44,654 nt of DNA from an uncultured Bacilli bacterium (lineage in GTDB: Bacteria; Bacillota_I; Bacilli_A; RF39; UBA660). The number at the start of each line of letters is the position of its first letter. Within the stretch, counting starts at the first letter, position 1. Positions 1 to 44,516 of this stretch are shown here, piece after piece. The position numbers and the translations under genes were made by a program. The DNA lies in NCBI GenBank assembly GCA_944331865.1, contig CALVIZ010000006.1, positions 1-44,654 on the forward strand, in the 5' to 3' direction. The notes under the pieces were generated by a model. The model was not told the origin of the DNA, did no database searches, and saw only the letters and a list, made by a program, of their open reading frames with translations.

Positions 1-60
1 TTCTATAACATCATTTTTTCACTGCTCATTATTTTTCTTCATCTACTTTAATTTCACCCC

Positions 61-91
61 GCTCGCCTGGACCGCAAGGCCCTAGACGAGC
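61..91 (-). repeat. Strong GC-rich hairpin just past the surface gene's 3' end
   Basis: Two arms pair through GCTCGTCT with AGGCGAGC (8 bp with one G-T), then a bulged A, then GGGCC with GGTCC, closing a TTGC loop. It starts 12 bases after the stop codon of the surface gene. It could be an intrinsic terminator, but no T-run follows it on the minus strand. A GC-rich hairpin just downstream of the variable repeat is a known feature of several diversity-generating retroelements, where it assists homing, and the coding region before it fits that reading. Confidence 0.8.
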
Positions 92-103
92 ATTGTCTTA
101 ACC

Positions 104-2041
104 TCAGTTTATCCTAATCGGATCAGCGGACGAGCCGCTTCCCGATACATAAGTTGTGGAAGATGTTAGATAAAAGGACGGCCGGACCGCATTGAGGTTA
201 TTGTACACAGTAGTGCTGTTGAGGCTACCCGCATAGATCACCCTAAAGGCAGTAAGGGAATTACTCGAGGCGCGAGAAATTGTCCATTCGTCTGAACCTA
301 AATATAGCCAATTATTATTTTTAGCACTATTATAAGAACTCATACTTGTTGTCCAATAACTATTGCTTGCGGCATAGCCATAATCACTTACATACATTAA
401 TCCTATTTTTGCATTATGTGTTGTACCTCTACTTTCTGCATTATAAAATGTTTTTGGCGTTGCTCTTCTTGTTGTATATCCTCCCACATACCATGTGTGT
501 GTTGCTATTTTATTTTGCCATGTACTACTTAATCCACTTAAGTATGTTCCTTTTAATGTTTCTGTATTTAATGTGCTACTACTCCATGTATTACTTTGAT
601 TTGAACTTGAGCCACTCCAATAGTAATTTCCTAAACTTGTGTTTTTTATTAGTTTTACTTCACTACCAAATACTCCTATTATTCGATATAAGTTTGCACT
701 TGGACATGTACTTGCTGTTGATCCAAAACATACATAATTATTTGGGTTTGCTCCTGCATATCTATATGAGTTATCTGCTGCACTATTTGCTAGACTACTT
801 GTATGATAATACATACTAGACATTTCTTGACCTGCTTCATTATAATAATTTTTTATACATGTTGCTAAATTTGTTCCATTACTACATACATCTGCTAGGA
901 ATATTTCATTAATTGTTTCAGCACTGGTTGTTTTTATAATTGAATCTACTCCGTTTGTATCTTTTACATATACTTTTATTGTATATGTTGTTCCTTTACT
1001 TAATCCTGTAAATGTTTTGGCATTACTGCTACTACTTGAGTATGCTCCATTATTTATTGAATAGTAATATGTTGCTACACTATTTGTTCCTCCACTTGCA
1101 CTTACTCTTATACTTATTGAATTTGTTGTTGTATCTGTTACTGTTATACTATTTACTACTGGATTAGTATATGCCTCGGTTGTTGCTTTAACACTATAAC
1201 TTTGAGAAGTTATACCTAAAGAATCAACTACATAGACTGAAAAAGTATATTCAGTTCCAGGGCTTAAATTATTAAATGTATATGTATTATTATTTCCATT
1301 ATCTATATATTCTTCACCATTTGAAAAATAATATTTTAATATTGGATTTGCTCCATTAGTTGCAGTTGCACTTAATGTTATACTGTTAGTAGTTATATTA
1401 CTAGTTGTAACATTTGTAACACTAGCAAAAGTATAATCTTGTACTTTTGCTGCTACTCCTGCTTTAAATGTTTTATTCATTGTAGATGAATCAGTTACTG
1501 ATTCATCTACATATAAATATAAATCATAGTCTTGTTCTTCATCTTTGCTTATTCCATTAAAATATATTTTATATATTTTGGAAAATGTTCCATTTATTCC
1601 TGTATTTAATTCACTTTGTTCATAACTATTAAATTCTGATAATGCATTTGTTGCATCACTTAATATTCCTTCAGTTATTATTTCTTTTGTTCCACTTTTA
1701 GTTAATATATAATGAATATTATTATCTGCTAAAGTATTAGTATTAAGTGTTGCTAAATATATGCTATATGCGGTTCTATCACCACAAGAACTTGTTAGAG
1801 TAAATGTATATGGTGTAGTTTGTAATGCTTTATTTTTACTCATTGGATAACTATTAGATAGTTCTACTACAGTATCAGTATCTTTAAGTGTTAAATTAGC
1901 ACATGCATTTAATGATACTTTAGTTTCACTACTTGTTTCATTAATAGGCCTCATAAATGAATATGTTACACCTAAAACTATAGTTATTATTATTAAAACT
2001 CCTAATACACATAAAAGTATTATTCTCGTATTTCTTTTCAT
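104..2041 (-). CDS. Anchored surface protein with two Fn3 domains and a probable DGR-diversified C-terminal domain
   Basis: A 645-aa protein. A short basic start and one hydrophobic segment (residues about 8-28) serve as signal or membrane anchor. A region to about residue 205 is followed by two fibronectin type III-like domains (about 205-290 and 295-378), then a ~260-residue domain rich in Ser, Thr, Tyr and Asn that ends in DPIRIN. The second Fn3 and the C-terminal domain are closely related to the protein at 43152-44516. An AGGTGAT site 4 bases upstream supports the ATG. The 3' end of the gene, from about position 300, switches abruptly from about one-third to about one-half GC, and its codons suggest a variable repeat (see findings). 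The fold of the last domain, possibly C-type-lectin or formylglycine-enzyme-like as in known DGR targets, is inference. Confidence 0.8.
   Translation of the reverse strand: MKRNTRIILLCVLGVLIIITIVLGVTYSFMRPINETSSETKVSLNACANLTLKDTDTVVELSNSYPMSKNKALQTTPYTFTLTSSCGDRTAYSIYLATLNTNTLADNNIHYILTKSGTKEIITEGILSDATNALSEFNSYEQSELNTGINGTFSKIYKIYFNGISKDEEQDYDLYLYVDESVTDSSTMNKTFKAGVAAKVQDYTFASVTNVTTSNITTNSITLSATATNGANPILKYYFSNGEEYIDNGNNNTYTFNNLSPGTEYTFSVYVVDSLGITSQSYSVKATTEAYTNPVVNSITVTDTTTNSISIRVSASGGTNSVATYYYSINNGAYSSSSSNAKTFTGLSKGTTYTIKVYVKDTNGVDSIIKTTSAETINEIFLADVCSNGTNLATCIKNYYNEAGQEMSSMYYHTSSLANSAADNSYRYAGANPNNYVCFGSTASTCPSANLYRIIGVFGSEVKLIKNTSLGNYYWSGSSSNQSNTWSSSTLNTETLKGTYLSGLSSTWQNKIATHTWYVGGYTTRRATPKTFYNAESRGTTHNAKIGLMYVSDYGYAASNSYWTTSMSSYNSAKNNNWLYLGSDEWTISRASSNSLTAFRVIYAGSLNSTTVYNNLNAVRPSFYLTSSTTYVSGSGSSADPIRIN
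107..300 (-). repeat. Candidate variable repeat (VR) of a diversity-generating retroelement
   Basis: The 3' end of the surface gene is GC-rich, unlike everything upstream. From the EWT motif (282-289 on the plus strand) to the VRP motif, most codons are NNC or NNT, such as GCC, TCC, CTT, ACT, ATC, TAT, AGC, CTC, AAC and TAC. That is what AAY codons give when their adenines are randomised. The interspersed codons without A (GTG, GCG, GTC, CGG, CCG) look fixed. A G/C tract (176-190) follows, as the G/C stretch before the IMH does in known DGRs. No template repeat lies in the window, so this rests on codon pattern and composition. Confidence 0.6.
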
Positions 2042-2059
2042 AGCATCACCTATAATAAA

Positions 2060-2106
2060 ATAATATCATTAATTTAATATTTTTTCAATTAAATTAATGA
2101 TATTAT
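2060..2106. promoter_or_regulatory. 19-bp perfect inverted repeat containing a sigmaA-like promoter for the surface gene
   Basis: Arms 2060-2078 and 2088-2106 are perfectly complementary around a 9-base spacer. On the minus strand TTGAAA (2083-2088) and TATTAT (2060-2065) are spaced by 17 bases, so a promoter for the surface gene is built into the palindrome, with the -35 at the centre and the -10 at the end of one arm. The same structure lies just after the stop of the AbiEii gene and could also end that transcript. Confidence 0.6.
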
Positions 2107-2126
2107 CTATTGTTTTACATTAAAAT

Positions 2127-2960
2127 TTATTTATCTTCTAAAATAGCAATTATTTTATTAATAGAATTTATAGTATCATCAAAACTTACATTTTTAGTAT
2201 ATTCTAATTTTTCTTGATAATTAAAATATACATTTTTTAAGTTTTTGCTATCTTTTATTAAACTTATTATTTCTTTAAATTTATTTATATTAAATTCAGT
2301 ATTTCTATTTTTAAAAGTATTTTTTATTGCTATAACTAAATTTTCTTCGTTAATATTTTGTTTATTCATAAGCATATACAAATCATAAAAATCTTTAGCT
2401 CTAGTAGAAGTTACATTTCTACAAATAATACTATTAAATTTTTCGGCAATTATTGTTTCAATAGTATATGCCATAATATTTATTTTTTTATCTTCAAATA
2501 TAGAAAAATATTGATATTCTATTTCTCTTGGAGTAATAATATCCCCGGTAGTTATTTCAATAAAAAAGTTAGTTTTTATTTTATCATATATTCCTTTAAC
2601 ATTTATTCTAAATCCACCATATTCATCTTCTAATCGAATATCTTTAATACTAACTATTTCAAAATTTACATTATCTTTAATATCAATAGATAATATTTCT
2701 TCAAAAATATTTTTAATAGAATCAATACTTAAAGGCATACTTTTTAAAGTAGTATCCATATCTTTAGTAGTTCTTAAATTTTCACCTATAATAGACGAAA
2801 GCAAGACTCCACCTTTTAAAATAATATTATATTTATATTTGCTTTTTTCAAGTCTCATTAATACATGTTCAAAGAAAAACATTTGGTGAAGATGATGAGC
2901 TAAATTATTATTTTTTTTAGCTTTCTGCTTTATAATATTATTTAATTTTGTTGAATCCAT
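2127..2960 (-). CDS. abiEii: AbiEii-type nucleotidyltransferase toxin
   Basis: A 277-aa protein of the AbiEii/DUF1814 nucleotidyltransferase family, the toxin of type IV AbiE systems. Visible signatures are KGGVLL near residue 49, the RTTKDMD stretch near 63-69 carrying the catalytic-type acidic residues, and a later AEKF motif (about 171) with KDFYDLY that is typical of the family. Family members transfer nucleotides, in some cases to tRNA, and cause growth arrest or abortive phage infection. The start codon directly follows the stop of the AbiEi gene (TAAATG), with GGAGG inside the upstream gene, so the two are co-translated. Length is usual for the family. Identification is confident; the substrate here is unknown. 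Confidence 0.88.
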   Translation of the reverse strand: MDSTKLNNIIKQKAKKNNNLAHHLHQMFFFEHVLMRLEKSKYKYNIILKGGVLLSSIIGENLRTTKDMDTTLKSMPLSIDSIKNIFEEILSIDIKDNVNFEIVSIKDIRLEDEYGGFRINVKGIYDKIKTNFFIEITTGDIITPREIEYQYFSIFEDKKINIMAYTIETIIAEKFNSIICRNVTSTRAKDFYDLYMLMNKQNINEENLVIAIKNTFKNRNTEFNINKFKEIISLIKDSKNLKNVYFNYQEKLEYTKNVSFDDTINSINKIIAILEDK

Positions 2961-3554
2961 TTATAGTAAAACCTCCATTAATTCAATAACCTGATCTTCA
3001 ATGTTTAAAACTTTAGAGTATTTAATTAATTTTAAAATATCTTTATTTTTGTATTTAGAATAATTTTTTAATGCCTTAGAATAAATTTCTTTATCAATAT
3101 GGTTTTTATCTTTAATAATATCACAAATAGTTCTTTCTATATCATAACATTTAACAGTCAAACCATTAATAGTTTTAATATCTTCCATTCCAATAAGAAA
3201 AATATCATCTTTAACATATCTTAATACAACATTTTTATTATTTAATAGATTACCATTATAATTATAAGGGACTGTAATATCATAAACTAAAGGAATTCTT
3301 TCAGTCATATTGTGTAAATATAAACTTGCAGTATGAGAAAAACACATACGACCACTGCTTTTAGATAAAATATAAAAATTATCTATCGGATAATTTGGCA
3401 ACTTATATATACCATTTCCTACTCTTTCTATTTTTTTACTATTTACTAGGTTACTTAAAAAAGTACTATTAACTTTTAAATCACATACTTCTTTAGCGGT
3501 AATATACCCATTATTTTTTTTTGCATAATCTAAAATCTTAATATAGTTATCCAT
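2961..3554 (-). CDS. abiEi: AbiEi-type antitoxin and autorepressor
   Basis: A 197-aa protein with an N-terminal winged-helix region (about residues 1-55, with the typical YITAKEV and VGNGIYKLP stretches) and a C-terminal domain, as in AbiEi antitoxins. Family members bind inverted repeats upstream of their operon and repress it. An earlier in-frame ATG at 3563 is only one base from the AAAGGA site, so the start at 3554, spaced about ten bases, is preferred. The gene lies directly before the toxin and shares its promoter. AGGAAA/TTTCCT inverted repeats overlap the -10 and the ribosome binding site, which fits autorepression. Confidence 0.85.
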   Translation of the reverse strand: MDNYIKILDYAKKNNGYITAKEVCDLKVNSTFLSNLVNSKKIERVGNGIYKLPNYPIDNFYILSKSSGRMCFSHTASLYLHNMTERIPLVYDITVPYNYNGNLLNNKNVVLRYVKDDIFLIGMEDIKTINGLTVKCYDIERTICDIIKDKNHIDKEIYSKALKNYSKYKNKDILKLIKYSKVLNIEDQVIELMEVLL

Positions 3555-3562
3555 ACGTACCA

Positions 3563-3609
3563 TTTCCTTTCACTAGGAAAATTATATCATTTTTCCTCGT
3601 GTATGTCAA
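3563..3609 (-). promoter_or_regulatory. abiE promoter with candidate AbiEi operator repeats
   Basis: On the minus strand TTGACA (3604-3609) and TATAAT (3581-3586) are spaced by 17 bases, a perfect sigmaA promoter. An AGGAAAA/TTTTCCT inverted repeat (3575-3597) spans the -10, and a second one (3563-3580, sharing one arm) runs to the ribosome binding site. AbiEi proteins are known to bind such repeats, so an autorepression operator is the natural inference. Confidence 0.8.
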
Positions 3610-43151: not shown

Positions 43152-44516
43152 TTAGTTTATTCTAATTGGGTCACTACTTGTTCCAGATCCACTTAAATAA
43201 GTTGTGGAAGATATTAGATAAAAACAAGGTCGAAGTATCATAAGCACTGAAACGCCTCCACTATAACAACTTCTGCGAATCCAAAAACTATGATTTGAAA
43301 TGTCAGAATTACGAGTAATTGTCCATTCATTAGAATTTAAATTTAACCAATTTTCCAAATAACCACCATCACTATAAATGTATAACGCTGTTTTCCAGTA
43401 ACTATTGCTTGCTGCAAATCCATAGTCACTTACATACATTAGTCCTATTTTCATATTATCTGTTGTACTACTTGAACTACTTCCTACTTCTACATCATAA
43501 AATTGTTTGGCGGTATACGTAGAAGAAGAAACCATACCTCCAACTTTCCATGTATGTGTTGCTATTTTGTTTTGCCATGTACTACTTATTGAATTTAGGT
43601 ATGTTGTGTTTAATGTTGTTCTTATGCTTGGTTTTGTACTACTATTCCATGTATTACTTCCACTTGTAGCCCATGCATAGTTTCCATAACTTGTTGATTT
43701 TATTAATTTTACTTCATCATCAAATACTCCTATTATCCGATATAGGTTATTACTTGGACATGTTGCTGCATCACTTCCAAAACATACATAATTATTTGGG
43801 TTAGCTCCAGCATAGCGATAGCTATTATCTCCTGCACTATTTGCTAAGCTACTTGTGTGATAATATAGTCCATTTGTTCCTTGTGAAGTATATAATCCTT
43901 TTATATAATCTGCAAGTAATACTGTATTTTCAGTTTGTGCACTTGTTGTATTTATACTTGAATCTACTCCATTAGTATCTTTTACATATACTTTTATTGT
44001 GTAAGTTGTTCCTGAACTTAATCCTGTAAATGTTTTGGTATTACTTGTACTACTTGTGTATGCACCATTATTTATTGAATAATAATATGTTGCTACACTA
44101 TTTGTTCCTCCACTGGCACTTACACTTATACTTATTGAACTTGTTGTAGTATCTGTTACTGTTATATTATTTATTATTGGATTAATATATTTATCAAAAT
44201 AAACATAACATTTATCTGTTTTATTTGTTTTTAAAGTTATAGTTTTTAATTCATCATTCCAAATTAATTTGCCACCATTTTCACAGTTACTTAAAACATC
44301 ATTAAATATATAGCCTGTCTTCGGCCAAGTACTTGTTGAAGATTTTTGATAAGACCCATCATCTTGTTCTAACATTAATGTTAAAAAGCCATTTTTATTT
44401 ACTTTTGATTTTGTATCTTCTACTACTTCTTTTTCTTTTGGTATTAATAAATATACTCCTACTACTATTACTAATAATGTACTAAATATTATTAAATTTC
44501 TTTTTTTATTTTTCAT
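43152..44516 (-). CDS. Anchored surface protein, paralogue of the first gene, with one Fn3 domain
   Basis: A 454-aa protein. One N-terminal helix (about 7-25) is followed by a short Cys-containing region (SNCENGGKLIWND, TDKCYVYFDK), one Fn3-like domain (about 112-195) almost identical to the second Fn3 of the protein at 104-2041, and the same ~250-residue C-terminal domain ending DPIRIN. Where the first protein has its GC-rich variable stretch, this one has an unrelated sequence (NSDISNHSFWIRRSCYSGG, then VSVLM) with AT-rich codons and no hairpin after the stop. AAAGGATTAAT precedes the ATG. Surface binding or adhesion is the likely role, by inference. Confidence 0.8.
   Translation of the reverse strand: MKNKKRNLIIFSTLLVIVVGVYLLIPKEKEVVEDTKSKVNKNGFLTLMLEQDDGSYQKSSTSTWPKTGYIFNDVLSNCENGGKLIWNDELKTITLKTNKTDKCYVYFDKYINPIINNITVTDTTTSSISISVSASGGTNSVATYYYSINNGAYTSSTSNTKTFTGLSSGTTYTIKVYVKDTNGVDSSINTTSAQTENTVLLADYIKGLYTSQGTNGLYYHTSSLANSAGDNSYRYAGANPNNYVCFGSDAATCPSNNLYRIIGVFDDEVKLIKSTSYGNYAWATSGSNTWNSSTKPSIRTTLNTTYLNSISSTWQNKIATHTWKVGGMVSSSTYTAKQFYDVEVGSSSSSTTDNMKIGLMYVSDYGFAASNSYWKTALYIYSDGGYLENWLNLNSNEWTITRNSDISNHSFWIRRSCYSGGVSVLMILRPCFYLISSTTYLSGSGTSSDPIRIN

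Follow-up and report, generated by a model that had tools for sequence, protein, structure and literature searches.

Diversity-generating retroelements (DGRs) are bacterial machines that rewrite chosen codons by error-prone reverse transcription. Phage DGRs carry hairpins with stems of 7–10 bp and GRNA loops, located 4–34 bp from the variable repeat (VR) (PMC3240598). Treponema denticola has a chromosomal DGR with TvpA-like targets, in which one cassette is accompanied by a core target and up to seven remote targets; strains of this species also hold leftover targets without a reverse transcriptase (RT) or template, and one remote VR fits the template of another strain and not the resident one (PMC4891356). 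A MutS-like protein, MSL (PF01624), is already listed among DGR accessories (PMC10053308). The window analysed here is a stretch of 44,654 nucleotides, contig C6 of the 57 contigs that make up the 1.19-Mb genome of an uncultured gut Bacilli bacterium, estimated to be 95% complete. We conclude that it almost certainly contains a DGR target gene with its VR and recognition hairpin. This DGR is of a kind already known, found here in an uncultured gut Bacilli lineage and with a larger target family; a literature search found no paper on DGRs of this lineage. It resembles the Bordetella phage BPP-1 DGR in its Avd, RT, template repeat (TR), adenine mutagenesis, G/C tract at the VR end and downstream hairpin (PMC3240598), and differs from it in residing on a bacterial chromosome with many targets. 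Treponema denticola provides a close precedent for its remote targets, its leftovers and a VR fitting a foreign template (PMC4891356); unlike that system, which belongs to another phylum, the one described here has a MutS-domain-I accessory, a hairpin past the stop codon, and VRs of two template types, TR1 and TR2, together.

The target gene (positions 104–2041, minus strand) is an ORF of 645 aa whose product is a membrane-anchored surface protein with an N-terminal membrane anchor, Fn3-like domains (fn3 was matched in Pfam) and a C-terminal variable domain, the latter being DUF6273-like as judged from structural matches. For the modelled C-terminal domain (pLDDT 90), DUF6273 proteins were the best viral structural matches; in the PDB fold search the sole significant match was an IgA peptidase chain, and C-type lectins gave weak matches (E about 1). 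Adjoining the target gene, at 2127–3563 on the minus strand, is a type IV toxin–antitoxin pair comprising an AbiEii-type nucleotidyltransferase and an AbiEi-like partner. The target gene has a second paralog in the window, at 43152–44516 (minus strand), whose VR-equivalent region is AT-rich and fits neither TR1 nor TR2. An Rfam search of window positions 1–3000 gave no match. The contrast in base composition that the original prediction had estimated by eye, about 50%, 32% and 28% GC, was borne out by computation: GC content was 50.4% in 61–300, 32.1% in 301–540 and 28.3% in 1–60, with a window average of 23%, and 61–300 was the GC maximum among 2221 segments of 240 bp tested. The GC-rich stretch exceeds the VR in width because the constant tail and the hairpin that follow the VR are also GC-rich.

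As in a DGR, the VR is located at the 3′ end of the target gene and is accompanied by an IMH-like G/C tract and a downstream hairpin. Adenine-column variation relative to the natural TR2 of a sister genome, G005, defined a VR core of the TR2 type, 101 bp long, at 180–280 (minus strand). The predicted G/C tract at 176–190 was present, and TR–VR alignments showed that its 11-bp part at 180–190 (minus strand; GCGGTCCGGCC on the gene strand) was identical in TR2 and VR and that TR–VR homology stopped there. The repeat had been expected to extend over 107–300, which proved wrong, because 107–179 (minus strand; FYLTSSTTYVSGSGSSADPIRIN) is a constant 3′ coding tail, where template and VR diverge and which other targets carry; these alignments indicate that the tail is not copied from the template. 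The spacer toward the template (1–60, minus strand), within which the contig ends at position 1, short of the 3 kb in which a template and RT had been expected, is common to the DGR cassettes on contigs C1 and C42 and aligns by BLAST with C1:3545–3604 with 2 mismatches in 60. The predominance of codons ending in C or T in the variable part, also predicted, was found as well: 79% of VR codons have C or T at the third position, versus 46% in the upstream part of the gene, and where the template has its 14 AAY codons the VR of the window always has NNY, with changes at the first two positions in 9 cases. By analogy with known DGRs, RT and Avd would copy template RNA into cDNA, erring at adenines, and the cDNA would then replace the VR upstream of the G/C tract; conversion of AAY to NNY codons would introduce new residues, and no stop codons, into a domain at the cell surface. 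On this reading, several related genes on other contigs were rewritten from the same few templates.

The RT and Avd of DGR type that had been predicted are both encoded in the window's own genome, on contig C1. An RVT_1 search of this genome gave RT matches on C1 and C20. On the minus strand of C1 there is a cassette consisting, in order, of a target gene (C1:3649–5307), a hairpin, TR1, a MutS-domain-I ORF (C1:2584–2958), an Avd-like ORF (C1:2219–2587) and an RT in two pieces, so that both accessories are represented, the MutS_I match being above its cut-off and the Avd match to NF033474 (E = 2e-6, 28 bits) below the curated cut-off of 80. With this Avd as query, a PDB sequence search returned nothing significant. 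The RT has the motif YMDD and, in one of its pieces, GLPIGNVSSQ, relatives having NMTSQ or NVSSQ; the xxxSQ motif characteristic of DGR-type RTs replaces the usual QGxxxSP. A PDB search with the RT profile ranked 8ub7 first, a 328-aa reverse transcriptase that we take for the DGR RT of Bordetella phage. Relative to TR1, the C1 VR was changed at 16 of 32 A and 3 of 78 non-A positions and the C42 VR at 18 of 32 and 4 of 78 (p = 5e-8 and 9e-9, respectively), an adenine pattern that is the signature of a DGR. The near-identical repeat of the original prediction therefore exists, as TR1, and is adenine-specific with respect to these two VRs, but it does not fit the window's VR, which differed from it at 13 of 31 A and 29 of 78 non-A positions (p = 0.4); TR1 was accordingly rejected as the template of the window's VR. 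Two other readings were also rejected. As to a retron, the RT on C20 is a separate locus, and the cassette RT has Avd and a TR adjoining it; the C20 locus (L004:8108–9136) encodes a retron-like RT near the St85 type, with 217 bits for NF038233 and a cut-off of 235. As to a phage origin, the RT had one distant match only, and the VR tail had no match in viral contigs.

The VRs of the window, C11, C5 (45.5 kb) and C33 resemble one another. A second template, TR2, was first deduced from the VRs of the own genome and then searched for, the prediction predating sight of the sister sequence. In the own genome only 5′ pieces of the predicted TR2 were found, on C17 and C42; in G005 there was an intact natural sequence 90% identical to it, in the place expected of a template, with a hairpin-bearing VR on one side and the genes for the accessory, Avd and RT on the other. 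When the adenine columns were taken from this natural TR2, 30 of 34 varied among the four own VRs, the window's included, versus 9 of 67 other columns (p = 1.4e-13), and the differences between the window's VR and the own TR2 consensus were almost confined to adenine columns. These comparisons indicate that the window's VR is derived from a TR2-type template, now truncated in the own genome. Templates were found near an RT for both types, TR1 together with the C1 and C42 VRs and TR2 together with its G005 VR; the intact template of the window's VR was present in G005 only.

The window's C-terminal domain had 34 matches in the own genome, which reduce to a relic and about 26 separate genes or gene fragments. 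VRs on C1, C42 and C9 fit TR1 and those on C6 (the window), C11, C5, C33 and C4 fit TR2, giving 8 fitting paralogs in a family larger than that of Treponema denticola; about four further paralogs are GC-rich but fit neither template, and the remainder are AT-rich like the genome. About a dozen of the approximately 26 related surface genes bear the DGR imprint. All 30 genomes of the genus had target-domain matches, 1 to 44 each (E < 1e-20), as did 1 of 29 genomes outside it, and the family is thus expanded to as many as 44 matches per ~1-Mb genome. The presence of about 26 paralogs in one genome, with tails and flanks common to them in patches, raises the alternative that the variation arose by recombination among surface genes alone, that is, by gene conversion or phase or antigenic variation and with no reverse transcription. 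We regard this as very improbable, as the changes were nearly limited to template adenines, whereas gene conversion has no cause to spare C, G and T, and at 9 of 34 variable columns the window had bases absent from every other copy. A natural pair of cassettes, in the related genomes G002 and G006, argues in the same direction: they are identical in RT (0 of 1077 columns differing), TR (0 of 101) and VR–TR spacer (0 of 317), and their VRs differ in 24 of 101 columns, all 24 being at template adenines (24 of 38 A versus 0 of 63 others, p = 9e-14). The site-restricted variation anticipated at the outset was therefore seen in two forms, confined to adenines in this pair and concentrated at them among the own VRs. 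Both checks named with the original prediction, on an RT with a repeat and on site-restricted variation, came out for it, and it was substantially right. The pair is consistent with mutagenic retrohoming that requires RT and template RNA. Upstream of the VR the two loci (L127 in G006, L129 in G002) differ by 4% at the DNA level, and the genomes stand for different species; because RT, TR and spacer are nonetheless identical, the cassette probably spread recently by transfer.

The RT family comprises 80 loci, of which almost all come from gut MAGs with the label Bacilli or Tenericutes, and an adenine-specific repeat pair (p < 1e-4) was found in 36 of the 71 that had enough upstream sequence. 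The accessory resembles that of the MSL-bearing DGRs in being encoded beside RT and Avd (PMC10053308), but here a MutS-domain-I ORF occurs in 75 of the 80 loci of one RT family, the five without it having <500 bases upstream of the RT, and most copies lack a conserved Glu. When aligned with MSH6, the ORF retained the Phe of the Phe-x-Glu motif, and the Glu was mostly Asn, being kept in 2 of 69 accessories. We hypothesize that this protein protects mismatched heteroduplex or cDNA from repair; a literature search found no paper on a near-universal MutS-domain-I accessory lacking the Glu in one RT family. In two relatives, G005 (L090:8437–10300) and G003 (L089), a group II intron with an RT gene of its own sits at the YMDD codons and interrupts the DGR RT gene; in L090, Rfam RF02005 and RF00029 were matched.

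The hairpin at 61–91 (minus strand), recognized from folding, positional conservation and compensatory changes, has 13 pairs, one bulged base and a 4-base loop, and starts 12 bases past the stop codon, as had been predicted. Folded as RNA it gave −21.1 kcal/mol (z −4.5), better than all 200 shuffles; folded as DNA it gave −8.7 (z −2.8). It lies about 85 bases past the VR core, and in most relatives examined a stem-loop occurs about 75–125 bases after the core; both the bulged 13-pair stem and this distance set it apart from the BPP-1 type of hairpin. Among 13 hairpins, two-sided stem changes were observed at 6 of 11 pairs compared, 2 of the six in one sequence only. Its location directly past a stop codon would also suit a transcription terminator of the ordinary kind or a structure at the mRNA 3′ end, and the hairpin-less paralogs on C11 and C33 have terminator-like hairpins there. 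That the structure is such an element, and not one for DGR recognition, seems unlikely to us, since no U-run follows it, most relatives have it at a similar place with respect to the VR and show compensatory changes in the stem, and in the own genome it accompanies cassette-type loci (C1, C42, C6, C4 and a relic on C13). The own remote targets on C11, C33 and C5 have no such hairpin though their VRs bear TR2-type variation; either the hairpin is no absolute requirement, or recombination handed on those VRs.

The own RT contains two frameshifts, a 1-base difference in mid-gene and a 2-base difference near the start; in intact relatives the RT is one frame of about 350–359 codons. The pieces show dN/dS values of about 0.14–0.23, like intact pairs, and because they still display purifying selection, the break is either recent or an assembly error. 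TR2 was truncated in both own copies seen, and a piecewise search of the own assembly found neither TR2 nor a DGR RT in intact form. As the end of C6 and the start of C17 fall inside the same spacer repeat, we tentatively infer that the window continues into C17 and is joined there to a truncated TR2 and an IS110-type transposase. Partly degraded DGR remnants were observed across the own genome, at L017:6600–6780 (C42), L058:1–1538 (C17), L020:8160–8280 (C13), L014:9100–9320 (C4) and L022:5327–5430 (C14); they comprise truncated templates, one of which adjoins an IS110-type transposase, hairpin and spacer alone, and a VR tail alone. The window's VR was recently diversified and may be an orphan, perhaps no longer rewritten, because TR2 is truncated and the sole DGR RT in the assembly is frameshifted. 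There is an appreciable, though less than even, chance that the same DGR still acts on it in the living population, the frameshifts and missing TR2 being errors of assembly or strain mixture, or an intact cassette lying in an assembly gap. The assembly does break within a cassette repeat, at C6:1 and C17:1, and both the dN/dS of the RT pieces and the near-restriction of the window's VR changes to adenine columns would fit an active element; two separate frameshifts in one RT gene, truncation of TR2 in both copies and the estimated completeness of the genome argue against it.

With the VR read as an orphan, the own genome seems to show what remains after decay of template and RT, namely a surface gene that has been diversified but no longer has a functioning editor. 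More tentatively still, we suggest that a genus of small-genome gut Bacilli might keep a DGR-fed surface repertoire, with up to about 40 paralogous target domains per ~1 Mb, several of them rewritten in trans from few templates, some of these without a downstream hairpin, and with a MutS-domain-I accessory that has no conserved Glu and may shield mismatched cDNA. A cellular lineage of DGRs is thereby documented in uncultured gut Bacilli, and the natural G002/G006 pair could serve to track diversification in metagenomes from the gut. The many targets per small genome, together with a distant hairpin that is absent from some diversified targets, raise the question of what governs the choice of target; the near-universal MutS-domain-I accessory raises that of how mismatched cDNA escapes repair.
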